From Cloeon dipterum (lineage: Eukaryota; Arthropoda; Insecta; Ephemeroptera; Baetidae), in contig NC_088787.1 of NCBI RefSeq assembly GCF_949628265.1, positions 2,594,501 through 2,658,500 of the forward strand: a stretch of DNA of 64,000 bases, in the 5' to 3' direction. Both the position numbers and the translations under genes were made by a program. Under the pieces are notes generated by a model. The model ran no database searches. It worked only from the letters and a program-made list of their open reading frames with translations, and was not told the origin of the DNA. Shown piece after piece: positions 372-51,798 of the stretch. Every line of letters begins with the position of its first letter. Positions within the stretch are counted from its first letter, which is position 1.

Positions 372-683
372 ATGTAAATGTAAATTCCAGGATGGAAAAG
401 GAGCAAGCTTTGGAGGTGCAGTCGACGTGCCCCTCTTTGGCAGCCACACCAAAGTGGCGGGAATTCCGTCTTCCAAATCAAGGCTTAGAAACAGCCTCTC
501 TCCAAAAATAGCCATGTATCGGAAATAAACATTGCCTGGCTTGTATTCATCTTTCATCTGTCCGATTGAACTATCAGTTCCTGATGGCCAGATGAAATCT
601 AATTCATCCCACTGGTAGACGGTTGTGAAGTTGACGGCGTTGGCCAGGCACAGGCCATGCAAAAAGATGGCAGCAAAGAACAT
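372..683 (-). CDS. Yellow/MRJP-like gene A, first coding exon (partial)
   Basis: This exon encodes a signal peptide (MFFAAIFLHGLCLANA) followed by the N-terminal blade of a yellow/MRJP domain. The family hallmarks are an aromatic VYQWDELDFIWPSG block near residue 18, a GERLFLSL strand, and an ATLVWLP...APPKLAPFPSW end. It ends with PSWNLHLH at a GTAAGT donor in phase 0, the same place and phase as the paralogues at 14.4 and 30.4 kb. The start ATG at 683 lies just after a TTTTCAG acceptor of a 5' untranslated intron. The remaining exons lie off the left edge, so whether this copy has a membrane helix and tail cannot be seen. Proteins of the family are secreted or extracellular; the ligand or reaction is not evident. 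Confidence 0.85.
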
Positions 684-693
684 TGTGATCGAG

Positions 694-1010
694 CTGAAAA
701 CAAAAACATCAAATTTCTAACAATATCTTAAATCGTTCTAGTACAAATAAGATATCTATGCTTGATCGTCTATAGAAAATGTTTATCGTTAAAAATATTT
801 GCTAAAATATTTATTCATTCTAGTAGAGTCTCAGTGAGTTAAAAACGAAATACTTGAAAAACTGAGCTGAGACAACTTTAGCAAAATCCTGAAAATATAA
901 AAATTTATGACTCACCTTCTGCGGAACAGCCGGATCGAACAAGAGTAAAGGCACGAGGCGAAATGCTGAATGGCTTTTCCTGCTTCAACTCGAGCCTTTT
1001 TAACCAACCA
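694..1010 (-). promoter_or_regulatory. 5' untranslated exon, intron and promoter of gene A
   Basis: An intron runs from the donor GGTGAG (reverse strand, near 917) to the acceptor just before the ATG. The presumed noncoding first exon lies near 918-985. This block, including the stretch AATGCTGAATGGCTTTTCCT near 960-980 and a TTAAAAAG TATA-like element near 996-1003, is nearly repeated upstream of gene B (14980-15075), which supports its being a shared promoter module. Confidence 0.5.
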
Positions 1011-2090: not shown

Positions 2091-2099
2091 CGGATATTT

Positions 2100-12007: not shown

Positions 12008-14767
12008 TTAAAAGTTGACCATTTCGCCACTGCTAGGCAACACCTCAAGATATTGCACCGACTCCATTGACGGTGCAGAAGAAGGACCTGGTCCGACGCC
12101 GTCGTAAATATTATCCGGCTCCGTCGGACCAACATCGTCATACACCGGTTCTGATGGTTTTCCCGCTTTGGCTTTTCCCATCAGATGCCAAGGTACCTCG
12201 TAGGGCTCAGGAGAAGGGTTCCTGCCACTGGCGTAATCAGGGTCAACTTCAGAGTACAGTGGTTCGTCAGGATTATTCTCAGGTATGCTCGGTTCGGAAT
12301 TTTCAGGTGCGACGTCGTCGTACACTGGATCGTCCGGGATTTCCGCACGATTGTCCATCGGTATCTGTCTCGAAGAGGTTTGCATTCTTCTCATCCTCAG
12401 GGTTTGCCACACATGGACAATGCCGCTCAAGACCAAGAAAAACGCGAGCAAACAAATCACAATTGTGGTGAAAGAAAAGGCGGGAGCTTGAGGCGTAGTC
12501 CAGGCTGCAAATGGAATGGTTACAAGAAAGTGATTAGACTGTGTAGACACTGTTCCGGAATCTTTGATTCTTTGAGAAATTAAAATCCTTTGCAATTTTT
12601 AATATGTATGAATAAAATAATTAATTCAATTCCAAAAGCATAAATAGCAAATTTCATAAATTTTGGTTAAGTTTGTCAGTTTTTTATGAATTTTAAGAAG
12701 CAAGAATGAATATAAAAGCACGTGGTTATAATTTTTTGTGGTAAAATACACAAAATGCGTATTTATCTCGCAATCTTAAAGTGCACTTTGGTTGAATTTA
12801 CCTGTGGATGGGCTGAATAGATACATTCTTGCGCCGACTGCAGCCTTGACAAGCTTATGCCTATTCCCACTTCCGGTTACATTTCTCTCCGTCAACCATA
12901 AAGTGCCGTTCGTGTCCAAGGTAAAAGTAAATGGTTTTCCTGCATGCAGTCCTTCAACCTAAAGAGTGCAGTGATTTGATATTGTCTGCCTGACATTCCT
13001 GACAAAGCATAAATTGTCGGGAATACGAGGGGAAGATTAAAAATTAAGATGGTGTATTATATTTTGCATCGAATTAAAGGCGATGTTAACTTTTTAATTG
13101 AGTTGCAACAAACAGGGTTTTCCAATTATTGCAAAGCAATGAAGCCAATACATTAGAAAACATAAAAAATTGTGTTGAACTTAACTTATTTCTTGTAAAA
13201 TAGTTTTCTGGATTAGCAGAATTTTTCAATATTTTAATAACACTAAAATGGCAGAGATAATTTTTTACTTTTAAAGCGAGTTTTTATTACCTCATGAAAC
13301 CGCTGCTCACGAAAGGGCTCCGAAATGTTCCATTTAGAGAGGAAAATCTGGTTAAAAAAGGCAGCATACATGACATTGGCACTGTCGATTAACAATCTGT
13401 ACGGTCTTTCGGTCCATTTGCCTACGAATTTCACAGCAGCTATTGCGCCTTCGTTCTTCAGCTCAGAAACAGACACTGAGTACAGTTTTTTTGACCAATC
13501 CCTTTTCAGGTATAATTGTTCCTTGTTAGGAGAGAGGGCCAAGCATTCCCATCTTGTCCCAGTTACAACTGACCAGGATTTGTTCGTTTTACGACTATAA
13601 ACAACAACGTGCCCTGAAAAATAGTCCACGATGTACGCAAGGTGATCGTTTGGCGTTTTTTCGATCACTATATCGAGGAGCAACCTATTATTATGTAAAT
13701 GAGAGATGACTGCGTCCGGGAACTGGTGAACGCGCTCAATTTTGTCGTTGTTGAGCAGGTCGAATATCCAAATTTTACTCGAACAAATGCTGCTGCCGTT
13801 ATCAAGAACCCACAATTGACCATCAGTGTCAGCTTCAATACCTTTCGCCGACTGAATAGTGTCGCAGTTATCCTTTTTCTGGGAAGAGAAATAAAGAAAA
13901 TTTTGATATTTAAGCAGAACAATGCAATGAATCGAAATTTTGTGATGAATTATTAAATCAGCTAATTTATTATAAAAAAGTACAGGAAATTCTGAAGACG
14001 TGAATTCAAATCTATATATTGAACACATCATCTGACAGCATGAGTTGACACCCAGTATTTCCAGTGCATTTTACAGTTCAAAAAATTGATATGAAGGGAA
14101 TTAATGATTTCATATGAAAAAGATTTCTTGTGTTGAACAATCTTTATGGCTTTTTCTTGCTCAGTATTTGACACCAAAAGAAAAGAAAAGCTCATTTTAC
14201 TAAGCTTCCCTTTAACTGTAATTTTCTAAGGATAATCACTATAACAGCAAAGGAAATATATCGGGTGTCAATTTTGTGGTGTCAGATTAGTTTGACTAAA
14301 ATTTAATTTTTTCCGCTCACTGAAAAATATGAAAACTGATTTTTGTTGGTTTCTATTATATAATAAGCTCTGCTTGTCTTAAAACTGATATAACGAGTTT
14401 TCCCACTTCATTCTAAAATAGCCCCAAATCAGTTTTCCTTTCAGAGACTTACGTGTAAATGCCAGGATGGAAAAGGAGCAAGTTTTGGAGATGCAGTCGA
14501 CGTGTCGCTCGTCGGCAGCCACACCAGTGTGGCAGGAATTTCAGGATAGGGATCAAGGCTTAGAAACATCCTTTCTCCAAAAACAGCCATGAATAGAATA
14601 TATATTTTTTCTGGTTTGTAATTATCTCTAATCTGTTCAATATCTGAACTATTTGCTCCTGATGGCCAGACGAAATCAAATTCATCCCACTCGTAGACGG
14701 TTGTGAAGTTAACGGCGTTTGCCACGCACAGGCCAAGCAAAAAGATGGCAGCTATGAACGCAGACAT
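12008..14767 (-). CDS. Membrane-anchored yellow-like protein B with tyrosine-motif tail
   Basis: Four coding exons (14453-14767, 13291-13878, 12802-12958, 12008-12504) join with phases 0, 0, 1 to 518 residues. Order: signal peptide 1-17; yellow/MRJP propeller to about 353 (VYEWDEFDFVWPSG, GIEADTDGQLWVLDNG, WIFDLLNND, LDTNGTLWLTERN); a short stalk; membrane helix about 366-386 (TIVICLLAFFLVLSGIV); basic stop (RMRRM); then a tail of about 130 residues with PVYDDVAP, PLYSEVDP, PYEVP, PVYDDVGP, IYDGVGP and VQYLEVLP. YDDV and YDGV are separated by eight residues, ITAM-like spacing with Val in the usual Leu/Ile position. Family members are normally secreted, so the anchored form is unusual. Function is inferred as a receptor; the ligand is unknown. 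Confidence 0.88.
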
Positions 14768-16098: not shown

Positions 16099-17300
16099 TC
16101 AGCATCGTGCGTTGTCAACCGGGGCGGCCTTGAACAGTCGGAACCTCGGTGAAATTTTATTCGCGGTCAGAAGCCAGAGGTTATCGGCCTGGTCAAAGTT
16201 GAAGACTATCGGCCGGTAGTAATCCAACAGGCTGTCACCCTAATCACGGCACGAACAACAATATAATATTTTTAGAAATACATTTAAGTCATGTTTATAT
16301 TAACTTAAAAAGATGTTGGACAAATAATTACCAGATAGAATGATTCCTCCTTGAAGGGCTGCTTTGTGTTCCAGGTGTTGAGGGATCGATTATTCATAAA
16401 TTCCGAGTACAAAACTCCCTTCCGGTTCATGGCCATCTTCGAGGTACGAGATTCCCTGCGTCCGAGCAGCGAGACGCTCAGGTTCCTGTTTCCTGCCCTG
16501 AGTTCCGTCAGGGCGACGCCAAGCATCTGTTCATCGTCAGCCTCAGCGACGAAGAGGCGAGACCTGTCAGGACAAGGGGAAATCGCGAGGCCACTGGCGC
16601 GATTTTGACCAATGTCAACGCTCCAGGAGGCGTTCCTGGCCAGGCTGAAGACGATCAGGTGCAGCGAGCGAAGGTCAGACACGTAGGCGAACCAGTCGTC
16701 AGACGTCTGGTCCAGCGCCACGGCGTTCAGCTCCCTGGGCACGTCCACGACCTGAGAGGGGAACGAATGAACCAGGATGACAGTGTCGTTGTTTCTCAGG
16801 TCGAAAATCCACAGCTTCCCAGGGAACTCCTCGTAATTGCCGTTGTCCACTGCCCAGAGCCGGCCCGTGCTGTCCACCTCCACGCCTCGCACGTCCTGCA
16901 TCGCTTTTTTGTTGCCAAATTCCTGATTTCAGATTCATTGAAAATATTTATTTTGACAGTCTGAAAACCCAAATGTCGAATCTGAATGAATCACCTGCAG
17001 TTCCAGGGAGGTAAAGGGGGTCAGTTTGGGGCTGGTGCTTTGTTGGGAGATTGGCAGCCAGACCAGGATCGCAGGAACCTCGGAATTGAATCGAGAGAGG
17101 CTCAGGAACATCCTATCTTCATAGACTGCGAGGTACCAGGGCTCGATTTGCCGAAGGTCAAACCTGCTTCCATTCAGGGTCTTGTTTTTGATCTCTTCAG
17201 AGGGCCAATTGTAATCGAACGGCTCCCAATCGTAGACCGGTTCGAACTTGAAGGCCGAGGACACGCCCAGCAAAGAAACCAGGAGAAGAAAGCGAGCCAT
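16099..17300 (-). CDS. Secreted yellow-like protein C (no membrane anchor)
   Basis: Three coding exons (16995-17300, 16332-16922, 16099-16239) join in phases 0 and 0 to 345 residues. A signal peptide (MARFLLLVSLLGVSSA) precedes the family block VYDWEPFDYNWPSEE. The second exon carries GVEVDSTGRLWAVDNG, LWIFDLRNND and AISPCPDRSRLFVAEADDEQ. The last exon keeps the propeller strand FNFDQADNLWLLTAN and ends ...DNARC with a TGA. There is no fourth exon, membrane helix or tyrosine tail, so this is the conventional soluble form and the only such complete copy here. Codon use is more GC-rich than its neighbours, hinting at stronger constraint. It is divergent from gene D, with about 500 bases between start codons. 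Confidence 0.88.
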
Positions 17301-17805: not shown

Positions 17806-19420
17806 ATGGCTCCGTTGTATTTCCTAATAGTATTTCTGCTTTGTGCGTCTGCCACAACTCTCGACTTCAAGTCCGTCTTCGAGTGGAATAGTTTCGAATT
17901 CAACTGGACCTCGGAGGAAAGCGAAAAGAAGGCCGTGAACGACGGGAGCTACAATCGCGAGAAAATTGAGCCTCGATTCCTAGCGTTGCACGAAAGGAAG
18001 ATCTTCCTCAGCCTTTCAAAACAAAATGGCGTTCCCGCTACCCTAGTCTGGCTGTCAACTGACGCGTCATCTACATCTCCTAAATTGAACCCTTACCCTT
18101 CATGGCCAAACCAGCAGGTTAGAATTAAACTTTGTCTTTGATTTTTTATTCATTATCCGGGTGGTTAAGGGACTTCTAATTTATAGGTTATGGTTTTTTA
18201 TAGGAAAAAACCAATTGTGACAAGATAGTGAGTTCCAGGGGGATTGAGGTGGACACCATTGGCCGTTTATGGGCACTAGACGACGGCAGTGAAGAAAATT
18301 GTCCACCAAAGCTAATGATATTCAATTTGACAAGCAATTCCGTCGAGCTGTCCCATATATTCCCTGATTCTACAGTGTCTCAGTCTTTTTCTTGGCTTCT
18401 TGGTGACCTTGTGCTGGACGAGACGAAGGACGATTGGTTTGCATACACCACGGAGTTTAATTACAGACACCTGGTGGTGTTCAGCCTTCGGGAAAAAAAG
18501 TCTTGGCGTGTGGAAGCCCAGAAAATACGCTCCAATGCGATTGCCCTTTCGCCAATGAGTAGAAGACAACACCTTTTTCTCAGTGGAAATGAAAGAAACG
18601 ACCTTTCAACCATATCTATCCCTGAACTCAGGGCTGGAGAGAAGAATTTGAGATTAACTTCAGCAGGGAACGAGACTGGATTGACCCACAGGATGATTAT
18701 GGACGAATGGGGAGGCCTTTATTTTGATCTCAGTCTCAAATCTGTGGTACGGTGGGACACGAGTGGACCTTTTAATAAGGTGCACATTTATAAGGTAAAA
18801 ATCTCGTGACATTGGAGCTGATACAATTTTAAACCTGTAGGAACAAAGTCACGTTTATTTTTGTGGAATTGAAAAAAAATATTTCTTAACGATGTAGGAA
18901 GAACGCTACTCCAATCGGCTATTTTTGTTTGCCTTTGACACAAATGGAAACCTCTGGCTCATGGCGCAATTCAAAGATCAGAAGCCAAAGTTCAGGCTAT
19001 CCAGGGCTGCAATGGGCGTCAGGAACTACCTTTACAACGCCTCGATAGGTAATTAAAAAACAAAAATCTCGAAAGTAAAGCAGGAAAAAAGCATTTCTCC
19101 TGATTTCAGACCCAAATGGACCATCTAAGTACGGAAATGGAATTTGCAACGGCAAAAAACACCAGGATTTGCTCGTTCTGAACATAATTTTGTCCTGCTG
19201 GAACGTGTTCAACCTTATCTCGATCGCATTCCAAATCTCTTGGTTCCACAGAATGAAAAAATGGCAAGACCGTATCGCGGCCGAAACTAAGAAAGAGGGC
19301 AATCAAATATTCAGACCACCTGCAATCCACCCAAATAAACCGCCAGAGCCAATCTACGAGGAAATCGATGCAGTTCCTTCCACTTCCACGCAAAACACAG
19401 TCGCAAAAACCAAAATGTGA
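17806..19420 (+). CDS. Membrane-anchored yellow-like protein D with a YEEI tail motif
   Basis: Exons 17806-18117, 18204-18794, 18901-19048 and 19110-19420 join in phases 0, 0, 1 to 453 residues. Signal peptide about 1-18; propeller with VFEWNSFEFNWTSEE, GIEVDTIGRLWALDDG, CPPKLMIFNL, VLDETKDDWFAYTTE and FDTNGNLWLMAQF; membrane helix about 371-392 (LLVLNIILSCWNVFNLISIAF); basic HRMKKW; short tail with EPIYEEIDAV (Tyr 433). YEEI is the classic high-affinity Src-family SH2 ligand when phosphorylated. The helix and flank closely resemble those of gene H at 34.7 kb (LNIILSCWNVF), so D groups with the plus-strand clade although its ectodomain is nearer C. Receptor function is inferred. Confidence 0.88.
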
Positions 19421-20299: not shown

Positions 20300-23200
20300 T
20301 CAGGGCAACACCTCAAGATACTGCACCAAATCTGTTGGATTACGTCCCGAGTTTCCGTTCCCTGAGGGTGCAGAAGAAGGTCCTGGTCCAACGTCATCGT
20401 AAATATTTGAACCAACTTCGTCATACTCCCGTTCTGACGGAATTCCCGCGTCGTTGTTTCCCAGATGTAAAGGTACCTCGTAGGGCTCAGGAGAAGGGGT
20501 CCTGGCAATGACGTAATCGTAGTGAAGATCAGGGCCAACTTCAGCGTACAGCGATTCGTCAGGATTCTCAGGTCTGGCCACTTCGGTGTTTGAATTTTCG
20601 GGCCCGACGTCGTCGTATGCTGGGTCTTCCGGGAAAACGGAAATAATTGCATGATTGTCCATCGAAACCTGCCTGAAGGAGGTTTGCATTCTTCTTATCC
20701 TCAGGGTCAGCCACGAAATGACAGTGCCGCTCAAGACCAAGCAACTGACGAAGAAACACACGAGCAACCAAATCAAAATTGTGTTCAAAGACTGACTCTC
20801 TCCAAGATCAGTAAAACCTCCGCTTGTTTCGTTTGATTCCAGATCCGGTCGTGGAGTTCCAGTCTTGCGTATCGGCGTTTGCGTGCTTTTTACGACTTGA
20901 ATCGTAGTCAAGACTGTGAAAGGAAAAGAAACGAAAGGGTGATTAGAACCTTTTGGGTGATGTTTGGAAATTAAATTCCAATGCGATTAATAAGTGTGTC
21001 TCAAATTGAAGAAGAGCATAAAAAATTCATACACTTTTTTAGTTATTTAATTACGTTCAGAAGCTCGAATGTAAAAGACGCGAATATGATTATTTTATAG
21101 CAAAGAACAATTTTATTTTTAAATATCTCTCGCATTGGAAAGTGCACTTGGTTTTGTGTGTTACCTGTCATGGACCGGCTGATTCTTGCGCCGACTGAGG
21201 CCTTGAGTAGTTTAAACCTAGACTTTCCCCCAGTTACATTTCGCTCCGTCAACCATAAACTGCCACTCGTGTCCAAGGCAAAAGTAAATGGCCATCCGAA
21301 ATCCAGTCTACCAACCTAAAATATTGCAGTGCTTTGATATTGTTAGCCTGACAAAGCATAAATTGACGGAAATATAAGGGGAGGATAATTAATTAATTGG
21401 TTCTAATATTTTCTAGAAAATTAAAAACAATTATTACTTCAATTTCAATTTTCCACGAAATTTTGACCGAGTGAAAGTATATAATTTCGTCTTGGCTTTC
21501 AACAAACAGGGTTCGTCAATCGTTTTAATGAGCGGATATGGAAACCATGTTAAAAATACTGATAAAAAAATGGGAAAGGTTTAAAGCAGAACAAATTTCA
21601 TCGAAAAACATTTTTCTTTACTTTTCAGACTTTAGAAATTTTTAATGTTAACTAGGCAGCATGAAAATGTTCTACTCTTTCAGGGAAATATTACCTCACG
21701 AAACCGCTTCTCATGAAAGGGCTCCGATATATTCCATTTAGAGAGGTAATTCTGGTTGTAAAATGCGGCGTACAAGACATTGGCACTGTTGATTAACATT
21801 CTGTAAGGTTGTCCATTCCATTTGCCGATTAATTGGACAGCAGCGCTTCCATCTTCATTCTTCAGCTCAGACACAGCCACTGAATACAGTTCATCGGAAC
21901 GATATTTTTCAAGGTACAACTGTCTCGCTTCCCTGTTGGGAGAAAGGGCCAAGGACACCCATTTTCTCCCTGGTGTTCTAACTGACCAGGATTTGTCCAT
22001 TTTTCGGCTATAAACGACAATGTGCTCAGAAGAAGGGTCCGTAATGTACGCAAGGTAATCGTCTGGCGTTTTGTCCAGCACAATATCACGCAGGTGCCTA
22101 TTATCAAATGGATGAGAGACGACTGTGTCCGGGAATTGGTGAACGCGCTCGGTTGTGTCGTTTTTGAGCAGGTTGAATATCCAAATTTTGCCCGAACAAT
22201 TCTTGCTACCTTGATCAAGCACCCACAATCGGCCATCAGTGTCTGGCTCCGTTCCTCTAGCCATCTGAATGGAATTACAGTTTTCTTTTGTCTAGGAAGT
22301 GAAGCAGATTAAATCAGTTTATTAAATAAATGGTGAATATGATTGAGTTTTACTTCTAATAATTAATATAATTTCAAATGTACCACCAAATTTCCATTGG
22401 CTTTTGGCTCGTCCAGTACGTGACACCATAAGTGTGAAGGAAAGCTCATTTTTAAGCTTCTCAACTGTACCGAAGAAAAAAATGAAAACAAAAAAATGAA
22501 TGATTTTTTAATTGATTAATTTGCTCTGCTCAACTGAACTGAAATTATACATATGTGTTACTAGTAGTTTATAGTGTTGTAGGGACACCCCCATTCCGTC
22601 AAACAATGACCACTCTGCAACACACAATTCACACAACAGACAAATCACATTGGTTGACGAGCATATATAAACCGACGCGACGCAATTCAAAAGAGAGAGA
22701 ATTCTTGCAACAGCCTAGACGACCGGACCAACCCTGAGGACAATCTGGACAACGATCCTGTAAGACGTAAAGATCGCCAGAGACGATGTTGCTTCCGTCC
22801 ACGATGTTGTCGATCGCACGCCTGGACTTGAGCGGTACCACACTTCGGATGCTGCGCCACGATTCACCGAAGTCTCTGACAAACCCACTCGGACACGTCC
22901 CGAGTCTTTTTATTCCGTCCCATTCTCCGAGCCTCACAACTACACATATCCAGCCACGCAGCCAAGTCTACTTATTGCCGATGTCGTCCCATCTACCACA
23001 AGTCGCAGTCCACACACGCAGCTAACAACTTAAACTTTAATCAAATTCATAATATAGGAAACCACTGCGCATCATAATTCTTTCCTATAGTGTCAAAAAG
23101 ATAAAGAAATTAAAAAACGGGAAAATATATTTTTAGAGTAAAATAATGGACACCTTGAGAGAAAGACATGATTTCAATGAATTTCAAAGATTCTCATTTA

Positions 23201-23584
23201 ATAATGAATGAGTTGATTTCACGTCAAATTGTCCTGAATATAGTTCTAAGAGAATCATAAAGCAGCCTTTTTCTTTCAAAAACTTACATGTAATTGCCAG
23301 GATGGGAAAGGAGCGAGTTTTGGAGGCGCAGTCGACGTGCCGCTCGTTGGCAGCCACACCAGTGAGGCGGGAATTCCAGAATACGTATTTTCAAGGCTTA
23401 GAAACAGCCTTTTTCGAAAAACAGCCATGTATCGAAAATCGACATCGTTTGGTTTAATTATTTGTCTAATCCCTCCATATTGCCAGACGCTATCAAATGT
23501 ATTCAACTCGTAGACGGGTGTGAAGTTGATGGCGTTTGCCAGGCACAGGCCGTGCAAAAAGATGGTAGCAATCAACGGAGACAT
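20300..23584 (-). CDS. Membrane-anchored yellow-like protein E with multi-tyrosine tail
   Basis: Exons 23288-23584, 21695-22291, 21165-21315 and 20300-20913 join in phases 0, 0, 1 to 552 residues, the longest family member here. Signal peptide about 1-17; propeller with GTEPDTDGRLWVLDQGS, IWIFNLLKND, VLDKTPDDYLAYITD and LDTSGSLWLTERN; a longer Thr/Ser/Pro stalk than in B or F; membrane helix about 393-414 (TILIWLLVCFFVSCLVLSGT); RIRRM; tail with AYDDVGP, LYAEVGP, HYDYV, PYEVP, EYDEVG, IYDDVGP and VQYLEVLP. The first intron is about 1 kb and contains an LTR-like insertion. Exon 1 has lost the usual WDEFDF aromatic pattern (VYELNTFDSVW). Inferred type I receptor. Confidence 0.88.
22575..23027 (+). 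mobile_element. Possible solo LTR inside intron 1 of gene E
   Basis: A 453-base block runs from TGTTGTAG to CTAACA, TG...CA ends with short inverted similarity. It differs from its flanks in composition and holds a promoter-like GCATATATAAACC at 22661. No clear target-site duplication was found, and no internal retroelement genes lie nearby. It could instead be unrelated intronic sequence. Confidence 0.35.
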
Positions 23585-32490: not shown

Positions 32491-34224
32491 TGATGGTTCC
32501 ATTCTGCCTGGTGTTTCTGCTGTTCAAAATTTCCGCGGCCTTAAAACCTTACAACAGTCTATGAAATGGACGATTTTCACTTCATATTACCGAATCAGAG
32601 CAGCGTATTCTTGGATATCAGCCAAATTATGGGTTGGTATTTCTCTTTGGACAGAAAAAGGATTCTTCTAGGAATTCATCACGATAGCAAAGAAATTCCT
32701 TGCTCTTTGGCCTGGCTGCCCATTCCAACCAGCACGTCAACAACCCCTCCTCAGCTTAATCCTTACCCATCGTGGGAATTAAAGGTGTATAATTTAATTT
32801 TGTTAAGACACGCATGAAAAATTAGACAATATTTTTCTAGGAAAGAGATAACTGCAAAATGATCCAAAGTGCCAGAGGTTTGACGGTGGACAGCGTTAAT
32901 AGACTTTGGGTGCTTGACAACGGCAACGTAAAGTGTCCACCAAAACTCTGGATCTTTAGATTAATTAGCGATACCGTCTATATATCCCACGAGTTTTCTA
33001 CAGACGTTGTGAACCATGGCTATGAGCTAAGGTGGCTAAACGACCTTGTTCTGGACGAAACAGAGGATGACCGTTTTCTCGCGTATATTTCGGATTATGA
33101 AGAACACCTAGTGGTTTTCGACCTGAACATAAGAGAGTCATGGATCGTGCGAACCGGAGGTAAAACCATTCAAGCCTTGGCTCTCTCTCCGCTGAAGAAC
33201 AGGACGCACCTTTACGTCAGCCAATACCCCTCCAACGAACTACAAACTATTTCAGTGACTGACCTTCGGGCTGAAGAGAAAAATGTGATGCTAACAGCAG
33301 TAGGAAATAAGTCCGCATTCTCCAACAGGATGATAATGGACGCCATGGGGGTTCTTTACTTCGACCTGTGGACCAAGAAATCTGTTTCCGTTTGGAACTC
33401 TAATGCCCCATTCCAAGAAACGGTTTTTTATGAGGTGAGATCGGAAAAAATAATGTGCAATTAAGAGATTTAAATTTAATTTTGTTGTAGGATAAAAATA
33501 TCTACGCGTATAAGCACGACATGCCCTTCACTTTTACATTGGACACGAGGGGATATTTCTGGCTGATGGCCATTTACAGAACGGAACATCGGATAAGGAT
33601 TCTCAAGTCTGCCACCGTAACAAAAGGTGACTAATTTGCCAATTTTATCGTAATCTTTGCTGTGATTTAATTTATAATTTGTCAAAGGAAATTTATTTAT
33701 TTTCAGATCGTCGTAACGCAATAGAAACAACCAGGCTCTCGAGTAAGGAAGTAGGCGATTCTGAGCCTCAAGAAAGCTCTGATAACGCTGCTCTTGATTA
33801 TCAAGATGTGATTATTCTGTTGATCTGCTCAAACGTTGCCACCTTCACTCTGTTGGGCATTGTCACCTTTTGGGCAATTCTGAGGCTTAGAAAAAAGGCT
33901 CAAAGCTTGATTGAGACCGAGCAGGGAACGACCGGACCATCTGATTGTGAGCTAGACGATGCTTACGAAATCCCAATACATTCTTCGCGAGGAACGAGAG
34001 TAATCACTTGCGCCGCACCTTCGACATCTGAAGTGCTGGACAGATTGGGAACGCCGCCGCCCGTTCTAGTGGACGAGTACGACGAAGTCGGCCTTGTGGA
34101 TGAAGAGCAGGAAAATTGTTACGATTACGTCACTGCACCCGCGCCAGTATATTTTCGAGCGCGCGCTTCCGACACCGAGCCTTATCTCCGCATTCTGCCA
34201 AACATCACAGAACACCAGGTTTAG
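32491..34224 (+). CDS. Membrane-anchored yellow-like protein G, signal-peptide region apparently broken
   Basis: Exons 32491-32784, 32841-33434, 33491-33626 and 33707-34224 join in phases 0, 0, 1. From the ATG at 32491 the frame reads MMVPFCLVFL, then meets TAA at 32542, and the mature domain (TTVYEMDDFHFILPN) resumes downstream in the same frame. A one-base change near 32520 would restore a hydrophobic leader, so this is an old lesion or a base error. The rest is intact: GLTVDSVNRLWVLDNGN, CPPKLWIF, VLDETEDDRFLAYISD, LDTRGYFWLMAIY; membrane helix VIILLICSNVATFTLLGIV; tail with AYEIP, EYDEVGL, CYDYV, VYF and PYLRILPNITEHQV. The terminal YLRILP matches the tail-only protein at 26.5 kb. Without a working leader this copy would not reach the membrane. 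Confidence 0.7.
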
Positions 34225-34673: not shown

Positions 34674-36611
34674 ATGTATTCACTGGTGTTTTTGTTGGTG
34701 TGCCCCTTCGCGGCCTCAGTAGCCAACGCCCTGGAATTTACTTCCGTCTACGAGTGGAATGAGTTCAAGTTCACCTTGCCTGATAACTCCAGCAAAAGCT
34801 TGAATCCAACGAAATTTGAAGATTCGTATCTTGCAGTGACTTGCGAAAAGGTGTTTATTGCACTCCACTATGAGAACAAGGAAATTCATTGCTCTTTGGC
34901 CTGGCTTCCAACCGACGCGACATCGACGTCTCCTCAGCTTTATCCTTACCCTTCGTGTGATTTGAAGGTATCGACTTATATCTTACATCCTTCCATTGGT
35001 TAATTCATAATATTTTTTTGTTCATATTATTCCATACCATAATTTTGATTTAAACTTCGTGGTCTATAATCATAATTTAACTATACTGTATACTATCAAG
35101 TATATAGTTTTCATATGTACACATATTTGTAGAGTAAAAGTGTTAATTTCCGACACGAATTTTACATTTAATTTTTCACAAGGTGATTATTCTATCCTTT
35201 TTAATGAAATTTCCTTATTTTGATAGTTAATCTTTCAGATTTGACGCAAAATCTATTTTAATAATCTGCAAATTTCCACAGATACACATATAAAGTATCA
35301 ATTTCATTTTTTAATTAAGGGAAGAGATAACTGCCAAACGATCCAAAGTGCAAGAGGTTTGACGGTGGACAGAGTTGGTAGACTTTGGGTTCTTGACAAC
35401 GGCAACGCAAAGTGTCCACCAAAACTCTTGATCTTCAATTTGAAGAACGATTCCGTGGAGTTCATCCACGAGTTTCCTCACGACGTCGTTAACAATGGCT
35501 CGAGGTCCCTGCAACTGCATGACCTTGTTCTGGACGAAACAGAGAATGCCGGCTCTCTTGCGTATATATCAGTTAAAGATACTCACTTCCTTGTTTTCGA
35601 CTTAAAAAGGAATCGCTCATGGCGCGTACAAATCAACAATAACATAATCATTCAAGCTTTGGCGCTCTCGCCGCTGAAGAACAGGACTCACCTTTTCGTC
35701 AGCCAATACATCTCCAAAGAACTCTTCTACATTTCAGTATCGAACCTCAGGGCTGAAGAGAAAAATGTGACGCTAACACCAGTAGGAAATAAGACCACCT
35801 TTTCAAACAGGATGACAATGGACGATAGGGGACTTCTTTACTTTGACCTGGGGCTAAACCTTTCCGTGTCCGTTTGGAACTCAAGTGACTCATTCTTTGA
35901 AAAGCAGGTTTATCAGGTAAATTGACAGTGTTTTTCTATAAATATTAAAATTTATTATTCATTTAAATATATTTTTCATAATTTGTTGGTCAATTCTGAT
36001 GTATTAACTGTTACAGAATGAAAGTATTGAAAAAACGGAGCCTATAACATTTTCGTTGGACAATAATGGATATTTATGGGTTATGGCAATTTACACCAAT
36101 GAGCCGAAGATAAGGATTCATAAAGCAGAAGTCAGTGGGAAGTCTTCCCTACAATGCGGTACCAACATTTAATTTGTCTCTATAATTCCTACTCATTATT
36201 AAAAAATCTACTTCCTCCTTAAAAATTGGTGCACTTTTAATGACTGTTGAATTTTCAGAGAAAGAGTCTCCTGGCCATTCTGGCTATTCTATCTTCTATG
36301 ACAATACCACCACCCCTTATTATCCACTTCCGACCTCAGTTGCCGAGCCAAAGGAAAATACTTGCAGTGACAAACTTGGTTTAAACATCCTAAACATAAT
36401 TTTGTCGTGCTGGAACGTTTTCTGCCTCTCCTCGATTGCATCCCAGATCGTTTGGTTCCAAAAGATGAAAAAGACGCAAGATAGGCTTGCCAAAACTAAT
36501 CAGGAACCTGCTGAAACTTCTATCGATGACGACGAAGGTGAACATATTTACGAAGAAATCGGTCCGAGGTCCACTTCCACGCGCCGCAGGAGAGCCGAGT
36601 CGCGCGTGTAA
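34674..36611 (+). CDS. Membrane-anchored yellow-like protein H with YEEI and C-terminal PDZ-type motif
   Basis: Exons 34674-34967, 35320-35916, 36017-36158 and 36259-36611 join in phases 0, 0, 1 to 461 residues. The start MYSLVFLLVCPFAAS is a clean signal peptide and is shared with J and K. The propeller has VYEWNEFKFTLPDN, GLTVDRVGRLWVLDNGN, CPPKLLIFNL, VLDETENAGSLAYISV, ALSPLKNRTHLFVSQY and LDNNGYLWVMAIY. Membrane helix about 386-408 (LNILNIILSCWNVFCLSSIA). The tail holds HIYEEIGPRS (Tyr 442) and ends RRRRAESRV. SRV at the C-terminus fits a class I PDZ ligand, and YEEI a Src-type SH2 ligand. Intron 1 is about 350 bases, longer than in most copies. Confidence 0.88.
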
Positions 36612-41017: not shown

Positions 41018-42971
41018 ATGATTCGGATCTGCGTGATGCTCGGCCTGACCGCGACCTGCTTCGCCGTCAAAATCAATCTCGTTCACACTATCGACAATGG
41101 AATGCAACCTCAGTGCATTGCTGCGTCAAAGGAGAAGATTTTTCTCGGCTATAAAGCAGAGGAAAAATTCTTTGATAGAGCCCTTGGTTGGCTGCCAACT
41201 TATTCACCATTGATTCCTACTTCAGCATCGATTTTCTGGCCATCCATCGTGTCGGTGAGCTACCAAAACTTTATTATTCCAACCTTGATATTTATTTGAC
41301 GAACTCTATCTTTATTAGAAAATTGGCCAATGCACCATATATGACGTCAAAGGATTGGAAACAGACCGCAACGGTTACCTTTGGGTGCTAGATAATGGCG
41401 GCCCCTTAAGTTGCCCAAAACTCGTCATTTTGAACCCGGATGACCACTTTAATGAAATTATTCGGTACCAGTTTCCTGCTTTTTCAATTTTTTCCTGGCC
41501 CTCAAGTAACAACAGGAAGCTGCGTGGCCTTTTCCTTGATTGCTTTCAAGCAAACAAGTGTTTTGTGTACATTGCATACTCTGGCTCGAACCACATCGTG
41601 GTTTTTGATCCCAGCAGCGGATACTTCTGGCCCGTCGAAATCCAAGGGACTGAAATCTTCGCCATTGCTCTCTCGCCATTGAAGAAGAAGTTGTACATCA
41701 GCGGGTTCGAATCCAGTGAACTCTATTCCGTGTCAGTGGCCGAGATCAGGGCTCGAGAGAAGAGGGTGGTGCCCACGTTTGAGGGAAACATGGATGATTG
41801 GTGCTCGGAGATGGTCGTCGATGATGTCACGGGAATCCTGTACCTGAGCCTCACAAATTCGCTTGTGACCTACTGGAACACGAACACTCCTTTCCAATTG
41901 GTGAAAGTGGATTTTCAGGAAAAAAATGTAAGTAACTTTCAACTATAGGAAATAGCTTATCACTTATCACCCGCCACTTCCTCCAAAAATCCAATAATAT
42001 TAAATATTCGAATTAAAAACCGTCATTGACGAGCTTTCTGAGCACACCAAATGATTCCTGAGGATCGAATTAGGCAAAAAAGATGTTTTTCCGGCCAAAA
42101 TGTCGAACGGGACGTGCGAACTTTTTTTCCCGCCAAAAAATATGAATGCGAGAAATGCGCATGCGGTTTGAGCACTTGCAGTGAGACGAATGACTTTTTT
42201 CAGATGTAGCCAGCTCTGACGCATGCGCACTTTTCACATTCATATTGTTTTGGCGGGAAAAAAAGTTCTTCGTCGCGCTGGACATTTTAGCCGGAAAAAA
42301 TATCCATTTTACCTAATTCGACCCTCAGGAATCGATTGGTGGGCTCAGAAACCTCGTTGTCTTTAATATGCGCAGTCGAAAAGAGATCTATTTTCTCACG
42401 GCGGAGGACCAAGGATGTCCTGATTGGCTAACAATTGCGTATATCGCCGCCGGGCGAATCAGAACGTCCGTAGTCCTCTCCTTATTTTAGCGAAAATAGA
42501 TCCATTTTTATTATTTTGAAACTTTGCGCAGGGTCGTTTGAAATTCAGCTTTGCTAAGGAAAGTTCCGGGAACATCTGGATCATGCAATATAAAAGTTCA
42601 AAGGAAATAACGATGCTATACAGGATTGAAGTCGAGGCAGAATCGAATAACCGTTTCACTACTACAGGTAATTTTTCCGGTCTAAAAATAAACCACTGTT
42701 CCTTATTATTTATTTAATTTCAGTTAGCGGTGCAAAAAAAGCGGTTGATACCAAAACAAGAGACGAAGTTATCCCTGCGACTAAGGGGACTGAAATAATC
42801 AGCGTAAATACCAGCACGAAAAATTCTGAGAATATCGAAAAAGGAGGAAACGGCGGAACTCTAATTGTTACGATTACCTGCTTGATCATTGTCTCCATTA
42901 TATCGGTTGGAGGTTACCTGGCGTGGTCAAGAATCGTTAAGAAAAAGAGGCAATTCACCATTCCACGATGA
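41018..42971 (+). CDS. Divergent membrane-anchored yellow-like protein I with a short basic tail
   Basis: Exons 41018-41254, 41319-41927, 42532-42667 and 42724-42971 join in phases 0, 0, 1 to 409 residues. Signal peptide MIRICVMLGLTATCFA; the first exon is about 20 codons shorter than in other copies and has lost the VYEW block. The propeller is recognised by GLETDRNGYLWVLDNGG, CPKLVILNPDD, SNHIVVFDPSSG, ALSPLKKKLYISGF and SSGNIWIMQY. A Lys/Thr/Ser stalk leads to a membrane helix about 373-396 (TLIVTITCLIIVSIISVGGY), and the tail is only SRIVKKKRQFTIPR. There is no cytoplasmic tyrosine, so it cannot signal like B, E, F or H by itself. Intron 2 holds a MITE. Confidence 0.85.
42030..42356. mobile_element. 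MITE family 1, complete copy in intron 2 of gene I
   Basis: Terminal inverted repeats run from TTCTGAGCACACCAAATGAT on the left to ATCGATTGGTGGGCTCAGAA on the right, with matching ATTCCTGAGGATCGAATTAG and its inverse inside. Internal palindromic pairs TTTCCCGCCAAAA / TTTTGGCGGGAAA and GCGCATGCG are shared with the copies at 57.5 and 60.0 kb. No open frame. Confidence 0.75.
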
Positions 42972-44734: not shown

Positions 44735-46354
44735 ATGTATTCACTGGTGTTTTTGTTGGTGTGCCCCTTCGCGGCCTCAGCCAACGCCCTGGAATTTACT
44801 TCCGTCTACGAGTGGAATGAGTTCAAGTTCACTTTGCCTGATAACTCCGTAAAAAGCTTGGAACCCAGACAAGTTGAAGCTTGGTATCTTGCAGTGAGTT
44901 GCAAAAAGGTTTTCCTCGGAATCCACCATGGGAGCAAGACAATTAATTACACTTTGGCCTGGCTTCCAACCAATGCGACATCAACGACTCCTCAACTTTA
45001 TCCTTACCCTTCGTGGGAGGTCCAGGTATAGACTTTTGATTAGTTTAACAACTAAATATCAACTATTTTGGATATTATTTCATGCATTAATTTTGTTTCA
45101 AAACTTTCGTATCTCTAATCAAAAAATATCGTGACCTTTCAATCTTCATACTAATAAATAACAAGAATGCATTCCTTTTTATGCATGAAATTTTCTGATT
45201 TTGGTTGTTGTTTCATTAAGGAAAGAGCCAATTGCCGAATAATCCAAAGTGCCAGAGGTTTGACGGTCGACAGCGTTGATAGACTCTGGGTTCTTGACAA
45301 CGGCAACATAAAATGTCCAGCAAAACTCTTGATCTTCAATTTAAAGAACGATTCCGTGGAGTTCATCCACGAGTTTCCTCACGACGTCGTATCCCATAAC
45401 TATGGCGCTAGGTCCCTGCATGATCTTGTTCTGGACGAAACAAAAAATGGCTCATTTGCCTATATATCAGTTAGAGAAACTCAACACTTCCTTGTTTTCG
45501 ACTTAACAAGGAATCGCTCATGGCGCGTGCAAACCAAGAACATATACGTTCATGCTTTGGCGCTCTCGCCGCTGAAGAACAGGACTCGCCTTTTCGTCAG
45601 CCACTACTTCTCCAGAGAACTCTTCTCCATTTCAGTATCGAACCTAAGGGCTGGAGAGGAAAATGTCACGCCAATATCAGTTGGACAAAAGTCCTTCTAT
45701 TCAAACAGATTGACAATGGACGATAGGGGACTTCTTTACTTTGGCCTGGGGAACAACCGTTCCGTGTCCGTTTGGAACTCAAGTGAATCATTCCATGAAA
45801 AGCAGGTTTATCAGGTACATTGATAGTGTTTTTCCTTCAAAATGATTAGATTTAACTTTATTGAAATAAAGAATTCGACTTTTGTTGGTTAATTATGATT
45901 TATTTACTATTATAGAGTGAGAGTATTGATATTAAAAAGCCGATAACTTTTTCTTTGGACGATAATGGATATTTATGGCTTATGGCAATTTACATCAATG
46001 AGCCGAAGATAAGGATTCATAAAGCGGCAGTCAGTGGAAAGTCTTTCCTACAATGCGGTACACCATCATTTAATTATTCGTACATTATTAAAAAATCAAT
46101 TTCCTCCATAAAAATCGGTGCATTTAATGACTGTTGAATTTTCAGAGAATGAATCTCCACGCCATGGAAATTCTATCAGCAATAACAATACCACCCCTAA
46201 TTCACTTTCGACTGAAGGCGCCGGGCCAAAGGAAACCAAAAATGGAAATGCGACTTGCAGTGAAAAATTAAAAGCAATGTTTGTCTCTTTTAAACGTCGT
46301 TTACATCTTCTTCTCGACTCCTTTCTTGATTCTATCGAACCGAAAGATGAATAG
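44735..46354 (+). CDS. Yellow-like protein J, membrane helix and tail lost by frameshift
   Basis: Exons 44735-45025, 45221-45814, 45916-46057 and 46146-46354 join in phases 0, 0, 1 to 411 residues. The ectodomain is intact and very close to gene K (MYSLVFLLVCPFAAS leader, VYEWNEFKFTLPDN, GLTVDSVDRLWVLDNGN, CPAKLLIFNL, LDDNGYLWLMAIY). In exon 4 the frame differs from K just before the helix: K reads YLSLLNIVYNLFSTVFLTLL, whereas J reads MFVSFKRRLHLLLDSFLDSI and stops at TAG (46352). An in-frame upstream ATG at 44681 exists, but the start shared with H and K was preferred. The product may be secreted, peripheral or nonfunctional. Confidence 0.82.
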
Positions 46355-46490
46355 GACGTAAAATGCATAGGCTTGCCGAAACTAATAATGAACCTGATGG
46401 TTCTCTCCTATCTATGACGATGTTGCACCACCAATTCTGCAAATTTACAGGTCCACTTCCACGCGTCGCAGGAGAGCCGAGTCGAGTAAT
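46355..46490 (+). pseudogene. Relic of the gene J cytoplasmic tail
   Basis: Downstream of the premature TAG the sequence still aligns with the gene K tail: GCCGAAACTAATAATGAACC, TCTATGACGATGTTGCACCA (the YDDVAP codons, out of frame) and CGTCGCAGGAGAGCCGAGTC (the RRRRAES codons). The C-terminal codons after GAGTCG read AGTAATC, so the PDZ-type end is also gone. Confidence 0.75.
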
Positions 46491-47419: not shown

Positions 47420-47803
47420 TTAATTCAATTTTTTCACGCGTCCATTGTAATTGATGTCGTCGCACTCCTTTTTGAGCACATGCGACCTGCATGGAATTTA
47501 TTTTAATAATAATGCGAATCATTTTAATTCTACTCACGGGATGTCTTTAAATGTGATTTGGCAAATTTCTTCTGTCTTGCAATGCTTGGAATAGGGGGAT
47601 GTGCCGGCCAGCACCTCCTTTATCACCTGTGACATATACACGGCGTACGCTCTTTTGACAAAGAACCCCTTCCCGTCCGCGGCGATCAGCTTGATGTATT
47701 TTGCATTCGGTCCGACGCAGTCCTTCAGGATATTTACAATTTGAGTTAATTGAAATAGGTTCGATAGCTCAATAAAAATTACCTTTTCAGTTGGTTGATA
47801 CAT
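47420..47803 (-). pseudogene. Elongin C-like copy 2, truncated at the C-terminus
   Basis: Exons 47783-47803, 47538-47722 and 47420-47486 keep correct splice sites and phases (0 and 2). They encode MYQPTEK, GPNAKYIKLIAADGKGFFVK, a longer middle loop (AGTSPYSKHCKTEEI), CQITFKDIP and VLKKECDDINYNGRVKKLN, then stop at TAA. The missing last 25 or so residues are still visible beyond the stop in another frame (EGPYLPEDE...), so an indel removed the C-terminal helix that ends ANFL-C in the other copies. At 90 residues it is short of the 112-116 norm and probably nonfunctional. Confidence 0.7.
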
Positions 47804-47986
47804 GTCCGAGGAAACGAGACGCACACTACAAATAATTTCATTTAAGCGATTGGCTTTGACTAGGGGAGGGTCTAGTTCTTTTATGTAACTCATTAGTTCA
47901 CCAAAAAGAATACAAATATCATGTTTTGGGTTTTTTTTATTGTAATTAACAATATAATGTTTATAAGTTTGACAATGTATGTTATT

Positions 47987-49440
47987 ACAAGCGCTTCGCA
48001 CTTGAGCTCCGATGTATGGGCAAATTGGGGGCGGGGGTTTGCAGGGACTGTTGGCCAGGCGGAAAAGCATGGTACAGCAACCGCGGCCCAAAAGATTTTT
48101 TTTCCGCCCGAAATCCGAATTCTAAATTCCCATGTTAAGCTTATGGGAGGCGAAAAACCCTTCCGCGCCGCGCGCTAAAGACTACTCCTCCCAGGTTTTT
48201 CATCCGATCAGGTCGAATTTGGTCTTAAAATGCTCACAGATAAATTTCGCATCGACTCTTACGGGCTTTTTTGAATTTTTGCCCAGGTCCGAAGTTATGC
48301 CTGCCGAAAGGTACGGAATGGAAAATGGGCGAAATTTGCCCGTTTAATAACTTTTTTGCTGTGGGGCGGAAAAATATTTTCCGCACACCGTTGGCTTCCT
48401 CAACTCGTCGCCTAATAGAATCTCGAGTTTGGGGGCCCTGGGGCCCATAGGGACCCCGCGGGGGGGCCGCGAGTGCCGAAAAATCGCGTTTTCGAACTTT
48501 GAAGGGTCACCGCTGACCCTGAGGAGGTCACCCGGATTTCATACTCTTTGTGCCTTAGTTTTTTGGGCAAACTTAAAGATTGGCTATCTTGGAATTTTGA
48601 TCCCAGACAAAGTGGGCTCCCGTGTAAATCTTATGGGGATTTCGACTTTTGCCTGTTTTTAACCCTTTCGTCCCTTCCACCTTGCGCGCGGTTCGAGCAG
48701 GATGACAAACCCGCACATCAAAATGAAGCTAATTGCTTGCTCTTTCGAATGAGTGGTCGCGGCGGGCCGTCGGACGTCGCGGGCCTTTGCGGGGGCTCCT
48801 CAAAAAAAATAATTCTTGTCCAAACCACGTTTTTCGGCCTTTGGAATTTTATATCTCGGCTCCTATGGGAGTTGCGGGCCAAAACTGGTGTTCGTTAAAT
48901 CCGCCGGTAAATTCTGCGGCCGATGGCACTAGTTTCAACCCCCCATCCCAAACGCACCCCCGCTGCCCCCGCGAGAGCGTCGAAAAGGCCCTTTTTGGTT
49001 TTATTTTTTCTTTAAATTCGCCTATGGGCGGAATCTCAGGTTTCTCCATTGTTCGCGTGTTTTTGACCGACCCTCCGTCGACCACCCGGGTTTCGGCCTG
49101 ATCGGCTAAGGTGTAGTCAAAAACTTGATGAGGTTTGGCTCTCCAAGCATGTCAAACTTCCGAGCGAGATCAGTGGCTTCAGCTGGGCCCTGAAAAAAGT
49201 TGTTATGTCACGCATGCCTCGTTTTTCCCCTTTAAATATTAATAACTCGGCACTTATTGGTCGTCGAGTCAAAAACCAAAGTTGGTTTTAGGCCATAATC
49301 TGCGTCAAATGGGCTCAAAATTGGCCCCGTCCATCCCCGCTTCCCCAAAAGCAACCGCAAAGAGTATACCTTTTTTCTTTCGTTTTTATTATTATTAATA
49401 TTTTTAATGGTGACTGGTTCGCCCTCCATTTCTTATTGAG
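47987..49440. repeat. Dispersed GC-rich repeat copy
   Basis: Starts with 51 bases (47987-48037) identical in inverted orientation to 4321-4371. Contains GGGGCCCTGGGGCCCATAGG (48430), TATCTCGGCTCCTATGGGAG (48850) and AACTCGGCACTTATTGGTCG (49244). These match the repeat series at 37.3-38.9 and 62.6-63.7 kb. The plus-strand open frames at 48429-49101 are overlapping and unsupported. Confidence 0.6.
49106..49189 (-). pseudogene. Orphan last exon of a second LRR-gene copy
   Basis: Behind a TTTTTTCAG acceptor the reverse strand reads 27 codons and TAG, including ARKFDMLGEPNLIKFLTTP. It matches AEKFERLGEPNLTQFLTAPT at the 3' end of the LRR gene (57065-57150). Similarity stops abruptly, and no other exon of that gene was found here. 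The exon sits inside the GC-rich repeat. Confidence 0.65.
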
Positions 49441-50040
49441 AAGCATCGATTGGCTTTATTGTTTTCGCGCCTAATTTATTGTTGGGAATCCCAGCAAAAT
49501 GTCTTTTGGCACTTCGGGCCATTAAACACTTTTTAACTTCACGTTTAAAATATTGTCAGCCACTCCAGCCACCAGTGAAAATGGCCAGCTGCGGACAAAA
49601 AAAAATCGGCCTGCCAGCCACCGCACTTTAAATCTTTTGGCTGAGACCTCTAAATAATATTGGTCTTTAAAATCATTTTAAGCGCAACAGATATCATTAA
49701 GATTTTATTTAAAATGGATGTTCATATAGGGATATTAAAATATTTCAGAGATGGAATTATCAGCGTTCTTGGCATTTTCAGACGAGAGAAATAAAAACGC
49801 CATTTTTCCTTGAAGCAAAAGCAAAAAATTATTTTTAGTTTCGTTTTGCGTCAGAGCAGCGATTGTGACGTGCAGAAATTATCAACAAACGCGCATTTAA
49901 AATGGAAATTGTTCCGTGTAGGTCTATTAAAACAGCGAAACAATTCGTATTGAAACAGTCGAATCGACACTCGGTTCAGTGCTTTCTTGGAAGAAAGGCC
50001 ATGTTTTCGTGCTGGGCTTTTTTTAACTAGAATATTTCAA
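49441..50040 (+). promoter_or_regulatory. Promoter and leader of gene K
   Basis: 49850-50000 repeats the leader of H and J: GCGTCAGAGCAGCGATTGTG, ATTGTTCCGTGTAGGT, CACTCGGTTCAGTGCTTTCT. An upstream ATG at 50001 starts a nine-codon frame ending TAG. The earlier part has no recognisable feature. Confidence 0.5.
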
Positions 50041-51798
50041 ATGTATTCACTTGGGCTGGTGTTTTTGTTGGTGTGCCCCTTCGCGGCCTCAGCCAACGCC
50101 CTGAACTTTACTTCCGTCTACGAGTGGAATGAGTTCAAGTTCACTTTGCCTAATAATTACGTAAGAAGCTTGGATCCCAGAGGTGTTTCAGCTTTGTACC
50201 TTGCAGTGAGTTGCGAAAAGGTTTTCCTTGGAATCGAACATCACAGCAAGAATATTCCTGGCTCTTTGGCCTGGCTTGCAACCAATGCGACATCAACGTC
50301 TCCTCAACTTTATCCTTACCCTTCGTGGGAGTTACAGGTATAGACTTTCGATTAGTTTAACAACTAAATATCAACTCTTTTGGATATTATTTCAAGAATT
50401 AATTTTGTTTCAAAACTTCCGTACCTCTAATCAAAAAATATCGTGACCTTTCAATCTTCATACTAATAAATAAGAAGAATGCATTATTCCTTTTTATGCA
50501 TGAAATTTTCTGATTTTGGTTTTTGTTTCATTCAGGAAAGTTCCAATTGCCAAACGATCCAAAGTGCCAGAGGTTTGACGGTCGACAGCGTTGATAGACT
50601 CTGGGTTCTTGACAACGGCAACATAAAATGTCCAGCAAAACTCTTGATCTTCAATTTAAAGAACGATTCTGTGGAGTTCATCCACGAATTTCCTCACGAC
50701 GTCGTTAACCATAACTATGGCGCTAGGTCCCTGCATGACCTTGTTCTGGATGAAACAAAAAATGGCTTCCTTGCGTACATATCAGTTAGAGAAACTCAGC
50801 ACTTCCTTGTTTTCGACTTAACAAGGAATCGCTCATGGCGCGTACAAACCAACAACATATACGTTCAAGCTTTGGCGCTCTCGCCGCTGAAGAACAAGAC
50901 TCACCTTTTCGTCAGCCAATACATCTCCAGAGAACTCTTCTCCATTTCAGTATCGAACCTAAGGGCTGGAGAGAAATATGTGACGCCTTTATTTGTAGGA
51001 TATAAGTCCTCATTTTCAAACAGGATGACAATGGACGATAGGGGGCGTCTTTACTTTGACCTGGGGTTTAAACGTTCCGTTTCCGTTTGGAACTCAAGTG
51101 AATCATTCCATGAAAAGCATCTTTATCAGGTACATTGATAGTTTTCTTCTTACAAATAATTACAGATTAATCTTTATTTAAATAAATTTCTCGAAATTTG
51201 TTGGTTAATTCTGATGTATTAACTATTATAGAATACAACTATTGATAATAAAAAGCCGATAACTTTTTCTTTGGACGATAATGGATATTTATGGGTTATG
51301 GCAATTTATACCAATGAGCCGAAGTTAAGGATTGTCAAAGTGGCAGTCAGTGGGAAGTCTTCCCTAAAATGCGGTACACCATCATTTATTTCGTCTATAT
51401 AGAATTCCCATACATTATTAAAAAATCATTCCTGAATTACAATTCGTGCATTTTTAATGTTTGTTGTATTTTCAGAGTATGACAATACCACTCCCTACTA
51501 TCCAATTTCGACTGAAGGTACCTGGCCAAAGGAAACCACAAATGAAAATATAATTTGCAACGACAAATACCAATATTTGTCTCTTTTAAACATCGTTTAC
51601 AACCTCTTCTCGACCGTATTCCTGACTCTTTTGTACCTAAAGATGAATTTGACGCAAGACAGAATCGCCGAAACTAATGATGAACGCGATGGTTCTCCTA
51701 TTTACGACGATGTTGCACCACCAAGTCAACAAATACACGAAGAACTCGGTCCAAGGTCCACTTCCGCGCGCCGCAGGAGGGCCGAGTCGCGCGTGTAA
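50041..51798 (+). CDS. Membrane-anchored yellow-like protein K with tyrosine tail and PDZ-type end
   Basis: Exons 50041-50337, 50536-51129, 51232-51373 and 51476-51798 join in phases 0, 0, 1 to 451 residues. Signal peptide MYSLGLVFLLVCPFAAS; propeller with VYEWNEFKFTLPNN, GLTVDSVDRLWVLDNGN, VLDETKNGFLAYISV and LDDNGYLWVMAIY; membrane helix about 378-399 (YLSLLNIVYNLFSTVFLTLL); tail with PIYDDVAPP, then IHEELGPRS where gene H has IYEEIGPRS, so that tyrosine has become His. The C-terminus RRRRAESRV is identical to gene H and fits a class I PDZ ligand. Very close to J in the ectodomain, so J and K are a recent duplication. Receptor role inferred. Confidence 0.88.

Follow-up and report, generated by a model that had tools for sequence, protein, structure and literature searches.

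Proteins of the yellow/MRJP family have been studied as pigment factors, royal jelly components and salivary binders, and the known members are described as secreted. The genome of the mayfly Cloeon dipterum holds a huge, mostly tandem yellow family, part of which occupies the 64,000-nucleotide stretch considered here (contig NC_088787.1, positions 2,594,501 to 2,658,500; hereafter the window, with positions counted from its first letter). Eleven yellow/MRJP-like genes (A-E and G-L) could be outlined from reading frames, exon profiles and splice sites; they lie on both strands between positions 372 and 51798, from exon 1 of gene A to the end of the last exon of gene L, and are joined by an additional tail-only gene, F. 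Eleven such genes in one array had been described in an earlier note on this DNA, and all of them were recovered in place. The genes resemble the known family in an ectodomain that scores above the Pfam cut-off, a signal-peptide-like start and a best sequence match to MRJP1 in the PDB, whereas they differ from it in the membrane helix and tyrosine-bearing tail that follow the domain. The favoured reading is that they encode type I membrane receptors that would signal via phosphotyrosine, to which a probability of roughly 0.6 is given.

For the tails, comparable systems are found among receptors of other families. The SH2 domain of Nck takes ligands of the YDxV type. Phosphorylated YDxV is reported to drive actin reorganisation together with Nck, and nephrin in its phosphorylated form is reported to cluster with Nck and N-WASP and to assemble actin. 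In fly macrophages, Src42A, the immunoreceptor tyrosine-based activation motif (ITAM) of Draper and the Syk-like kinase Shark act together, with a form of Draper bearing an immunoreceptor tyrosine-based inhibitory motif (ITIM) as the counterpart. Like nephrin and other YDxV-Nck receptors, the products of the present genes are predicted single-pass proteins with repeated YDxV sites in the tail, but the nephrin ectodomain is immunoglobulin-like and the one found here is yellow. ITAM and ITIM receptors, such as those of the Draper-Shark system and the vertebrate immunoreceptors, are likewise single-pass with closely spaced tail tyrosines, whereas here Val rather than Leu or Ile stands at +3 and the ectodomain is unrelated. 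In addition, a set of related ectodomains that differ in having a long, a short or no signalling-type tail recalls paired receptors, and the long, one-site and cut-short forms resemble those of vertebrates.

In the four-exon plan of the array, exon 1 encodes a start resembling a signal peptide together with the beginning of the domain, exon 2 about 200 residues of the yellow domain, exon 3 the final repeat (..DTxGxLW..), and exon 4 a linker, one membrane helix and the predicted cytoplasmic tail, helices being judged by a hydropathy window only and signal peptides by hydropathy or eye. All three full-length models tested matched Pfam MRJP (PF03022) above the 19.8-bit cut-off, at 67-88 bits with E values of 2e-18 to 9e-25. 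The best PDB sequence match of exon 2 was MRJP1 (E 4e-20), followed by designed Pizza propellers, a dopachrome conversion enzyme and a 43.2 kDa salivary protein. On these matches, exons 1-3 encode a yellow/MRJP domain that is predicted to form a propeller, and its complete frame is free of stops in 42 of 52 gene models. Among eight loci of other yellow genes of the genome, three (L001, L002 and L006) have an open frame past the domain to a stop; hydropathy revealed no helix past the yellow domain in these three, the domain end lying out of view in the other five.

The 52 gene models, of which models 8 and 9 represent one gene, were built over 293.5 kb of joined and single stretches, and introns of phase 0, 0 and 1 recurred across the copies. 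Among the models that had a site, the best-scoring one lay in the expected phase for 50 of 50 exon 1 donors, 48 of 51 exon 2 acceptors, 51 of 52 exon 2 donors, 48 of 52 exon 3 acceptors and 45 of 51 exon 3 donors. An exon 4 was accepted where a good phase-1 acceptor, at most 1.1 kb behind the exon 3 donor, opened a helix-containing frame. By this test the helix exon was gained behind 34 of 52 exon 3 anchors, compared with 7 of 52 when the stretches were read in reverse complement; with Y[DE]x[VI] in the tail also required, the figures were 26 of 52 and 0 of 52. In the gene models themselves the exon 4 starts are provisional, motif content having formed part of the score by which they were picked. 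Chance open reading frames were excluded as an explanation by the reverse-strand control and the common intron phases. The predicted structure of yellow ectodomain, single membrane helix and tyrosine-motif tail, the structural part of what the earlier note had proposed, draws support from the intron phases and the reverse-strand control, from sequence matches in Pfam and the PDB, and from the recurrence of the tail in diverged subfamilies and on another contig.

Within the window, the joined models of A, B, D, E, G, I and L contain no internal stops, and a membrane-helix-like exon occurs in eight copies (B, D, E, G, H, I, J and L). The count of eight intact helices given previously thus stands for the helix exons, but exon 1 of H is frameshifted upstream of 32566, between the signal peptide and the mature part. 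The accompanying statement that every helix copy except I is rich in motifs needs correction: seven of the eight carry tyrosine motifs, but J has none. The search for exon 3 of gene J returned no match, so the model of this gene is unsure. No exon 4 was found for gene C, where the exon 3 match is only partial, and exon 4 of gene K (about 46.18-46.45 kb) is frame-broken.

The motifs far exceed chance in the long tails. Counted in 17 of 19 such tails (all except L011 and L015), which are related so that the counts are not independent, YDxV occurred 45 times against a mean of 0.6 and a maximum of 4 in 1000 shuffles, YxxV/I/L 77 times against a mean of 18.8, and YxxVGP/VAP 34 times against a mean of 0.1. 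YxxP alone showed no excess in these 17 tails (14 against a shuffle mean of 13.7). When nine tails were taken, one per subfamily or class, Y[DE]x[VI] was in excess in eight (P 0.016 or less) and the looser Yxx[VILMP] in five (P below 0.05). The typical order in a long tail is YDDVxP, Y[AS]EV, YExP, the pair YD[DE]VGP-x(7-11)-YDDVxP and a near-terminal YLxxLP. The gap of the tandem YDxV pair is 8 in nine of ten core tails (4 in E) and 7-11 in m0, m1, F, H and the tail on contig C3, the pair being absent from m3, m51 and m41. Conservation of the motifs in number and spacing, as claimed before, is only partly borne out: their order is kept with losses, and a distance of 7-11 residues separates the tandem pair in the majority of long tails, but their number varies from 2 to 7 in long tails, 1 to 3 in short and 0 to 1 in cut-short ones.

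The family extends well beyond the window. Two exon 2 queries against the same genome gave 150 scored places each, the best of 368 and 374 candidates, which together make at least 197 places and, with an additional scan, at least 202; these are minimum numbers that also cover damaged copies. On contig C2 lie 181 of the 202, 172 of them below 6 Mb. A Pfam search for all yellow genes of the genome returned at least 199 exon-level matches, with 135 of 408 candidates scored. Tail queries matched 55 and 105 pieces, some tails occurring twice, and several of the matches outside the window carry stops. On contig C3 (L044/L047, C3:7729221-7732820), matches to exons 1, 2 and 3 (E 9e-31, 1.5e-70 and 1e-6) precede a tail with YEVP, YDDVGP, YDYV, YESM and YSKV, and the helix is present; used as a query, this tail matched itself, gene H and one more place on C2. 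The locus may be the closest to the founder. Derivation of the tail from an unrelated donor gene was ruled out, since this outlying tail also sits behind yellow exons. Elsewhere on C3, a further locus (L004, C3:14510456-14514085) has matches to family exons 2 and 3 (E 2.5e-62 and 9e-12), and no tyrosine tail was seen there. A search for relatives in viral contigs gave 26 pattern matches, none of which was confirmed. As to the genome itself, neither of the two telomere repeats searched for had a match, a COX1 search yielded a single weak and partial match, and the sizes of four contigs (36-43 Mb) and of C5 (more than 31 Mb) point to five large chromosomes.

The main subfamilies share 33-47% ectodomain identity, and their tails retain a common set of motifs whose order is constant, although some motifs have been lost in H, m41 and m51. 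Because the motif order persists at this identity and on contig C3, and so outlives ectodomain similarity, recent copying was ruled out as the whole account. The ratio of nonsynonymous to synonymous substitution rates (dN/dS) in ten of twelve close tails (all except L011 and L015) was 0.57 overall, 0.24 at tyrosine codons, 0.46 at YxxV and 0.65 elsewhere. For the 45 closest ectodomain pairs the ratio ranged from 0.23 to 0.94; when 20 core models were scanned in windows along the ectodomain, it varied between 0.25 and 1.01 and peaked in exon 3. Selection on the tails appears real but modest, and the pattern fits a fast-evolving recognition part combined with a more constrained signalling motif, a comparison in which gene conversion could blur dN/dS.

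Short tails carry one YEEI, YEEV or YDDV, and two such motifs in m39; L014 and m42 are the same gene. The seven cut-short tails end soon after the helix, two of them without tyrosine, four with one tyrosine in YVF and m16 with one YDDV. In eight genes outside the window (models 5, 6, 7, 8, 10, 12, 13 and 14), exon 3 is followed by a common acceptor, ..ATCCTTTTGCAG, reading [DE]L[PS][LS]RG-stop, and this end sits in an exon 4 remnant that has lost part of the helix. The acceptor was absent from the other models examined alongside these eight, whose products are predicted to be secreted. In a tree built from the ectodomains of 42 models, the tail classes, assigned by hand, were interleaved, yet more clustered than shuffled labels, with 17 class changes needed against a least possible number of 4 and a shuffled mean of 24.1. 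For the long tails there were 10 changes, at least 4 of them forced by well-supported branches; they fall into four separate groups, and H and m41 adjoin one-site relatives. Since the classes are interleaved, tails have apparently been lost, shortened or exchanged repeatedly.

Two chains lack the propeller. Gene F has, by eye, about 26 extracellular residues including one cysteine, a helix and six motifs; Pfam gave no PF03022 match to it, and the search for yellow exons upstream yielded only matches of E 0.28 or worse. L027 (C2:2586885-2587308, minus), a short way to the left of the window, is a second short membrane open reading frame, with YDEIGP, YSVP and YDDVGP, and within 5 kb upstream of it only chance-level matches to yellow exons were found (E 0.3 or worse). 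When 11 helices from the one-site class and related copies were compared, SCWN was present in 10 and a following SQ or FQ in 9, the helix of gene L having neither and m35 lacking the Gln. Such polar residues, for example in window 19110-19420 (D) and 36340-36611 (I), are unusual for a plain anchor. Polar residues inside a helix often serve pairing, and those of the one-site helices may do the same. An ambitious and rather unlikely extension would unite about 200 genes in a paired-receptor recognition system, comprising long-tailed forms, one-site forms (SCWN...SQ) and cut-short or secreted decoys, with F and L027 as DAP12-like adaptors; it would represent an invertebrate counterpart, derived from pigment and royal-jelly proteins, of the vertebrate variable immunoreceptor clusters.

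A mechanism can be proposed in which the yellow/MRJP propeller would stand outside the cell and bind a ligand that differs between copies. Ligand binding or clustering would draw in a kinase of the Src family, which would phosphorylate the tyrosines of the tail. The YDxV sites would then recruit SH2 adaptors of the Nck/Dock type, Dock being the Drosophila homologue of Nck, and where two such sites lie close together a kinase with tandem SH2 domains, such as Shark, could dock as well. Docking of the adaptor or kinase would lead to actin remodelling in engulfment, adhesion or cell migration, and the one-motif, cut-short and predicted-secreted copies would serve as weak, non-signalling or decoy partners. 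Cell topology, phosphorylation, SH2 partners, actin output and the decoy role are all presumed here from known motifs. The present tails could take an Nck or a Draper/Shark-type route, and Nck/Dock is put forward as the main partner only tentatively and with some doubt. The genome contains 37 exon matches to SH2 domains.

Several observations weigh against phosphotyrosine receptors as the products of these genes. The genes are known here from the DNA sequence of a single genome, and C, H and K look damaged. Eighteen of the 52 models lack an exon 4 passing the test, and 6 of 51 exon 3 donors, including those of I, K and L, have their best score outside phase 1. Taken singly, the tail of H (P 0.06) and all three short tails (P 0.15-0.25) show a weak enrichment of Yxx[VILMP]. 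The +3 residue is mostly Val, where classical ITAMs want Leu or Ile, and for this reason the strict ITAM label was not given. The dN/dS of 0.65 outside the motifs denotes modest constraint, and gene conversion among the copies might give a false impression of conservation.

The same genes might instead encode non-signalling membrane propellers, scavenger or transport receptors whose tyrosine motifs are YxxPhi sorting signals for endocytosis. Tyrosine with a bulky hydrophobic residue at +3, in excess in the long tails as YxxV/I/L, also reads as YxxPhi. The enriched form, however, is acidic at +1 and +2 and has Val at +3, frequently followed by Gly/Ala-Pro, which is SH2-ligand-like rather than AP2-like, and the YExP sites (YEVP and YEEP) do not fit YxxPhi; sorting signals are thus considered an unlikely account. 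Runaway tandem amplification of largely decaying copies, with tails alike through recent copying and gene conversion rather than through use, would agree with the damaged genes of the window, the stops in tail matches elsewhere, the models without exon 4 and the ectodomain dN/dS of up to 0.94. It is difficult to reconcile with the stop-free ectodomain frames, with a motif order that persists, with losses, across diverged subfamilies and on another contig, and with a dN/dS that is lowest at the tyrosine codons, and is judged quite improbable. Finally, the main products could be secreted yellow proteins, exon 4 being a rarely used alternative end, as yellow proteins are typically secreted and the eight genes with the common acceptor can end after exon 3; most other copies, in contrast, have a phase-1 exon 3 donor followed by a phase-matched helix-and-tail exon, and very little weight is placed on this explanation.

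The array had been called a candidate for an undescribed system in the earlier note. In the open literature on yellow/MRJP proteins and on wasp genomes, as covered here with few subscription papers and no preprints, neither membrane yellow receptors nor an array this large came to light. The parts are of known kinds, and their combination and scale are, as far as could be seen, undescribed. According to PMC9960361, enrichment for 'caste determination' is seen among the expanded families of T. dendrolimi, which might reflect MRJP-type copies. If the tails signal, the genes would form a new class of insect receptor, and the yellow family, with about two hundred copies, many of them membrane-bound with phosphotyrosine-type tails, would become a source of receptors. 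A large variable receptor repertoire would be added to insects, together with a direct test of recognition by the yellow propeller.

Table 1. Yellow/MRJP-like genes and the tail-only gene F, in window positions unless given with a contig.
Gene	Total	Exons	Strand	Features
A		exon 1 372..683; exons 2-4 left of window, C2:2592336-2594296	minus	joined model without stops; long tail, 6 motifs
B	12008..14767	14453-14767, 13291-13878, 12802-12958, 12008-12504	minus	helix and 6 Tyr motifs; 518 residues, without stops
C	16123..17300	exon 1 16992-17300, exon 2 16329-16919, exon 3 partial 16123-16215	minus	exon matches
D	17806..19420	17806-18117, 18204-18794, 18898-19048, 19110-19420	plus	helix and one YEEI
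E	20300..23584	23288-23584, 21695-22291, 21165-21315, 20300-20913	minus	helix and 7 Tyr motifs; 552-residue model
F	26487..27008		plus	signal-peptide-like start, short ectodomain, helix; tail YHEI, YEFV, YDDVGP, YDDVGP, YEEM, YLRILP
G	28287..30665	30354-30665, 29224-29814, 28947-29103, 28287-28816	minus	helix and long tail; 529-residue model
H	32566..34224	32841-33434, 33491-33626, 33707-34224	plus	helix and YEIP, YDEV, YDYV, YLRILP
I	34674..36611	34674-34967, 35320-35916, 36017-36158, 36340-36611	plus	helix and one YEEIGP; weak phase-1 exon 3 donor
J	41018..42968	exons 1-2 41018-41254, 41322-41909; helix-coding stretch 42852-42968	plus	without Tyr motifs
K	44735..46450	exons 1-3 open, 44735-45028, 45221-45820, 45937-46062	plus	weak exon 3 donor
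L	50041..51798	50041-50337, 50536-51129, 51232-51373, 51476-51798	plus	helix, YDDVAP and degenerate HEELGP unit; weak phase-1 exon 3 donor

Other frames of the window were also noted. At 57226-59408 (minus), several frames suggest a leucine-rich-looking protein, and the two frames tested gave no Pfam family at E 0.01. A short frame at 9733-10062 (minus) has a signal-peptide-like start (MQLRTTILLLFVHVVAVLLLASG) and no Pfam match. The frame at 47537-48121 (minus), likewise without a Pfam match, looks by eye like elongin C. It has a PICPYIGAQVRSAC stretch in common with the region about 4.0-4.4 kb, perhaps a dispersed repeat.

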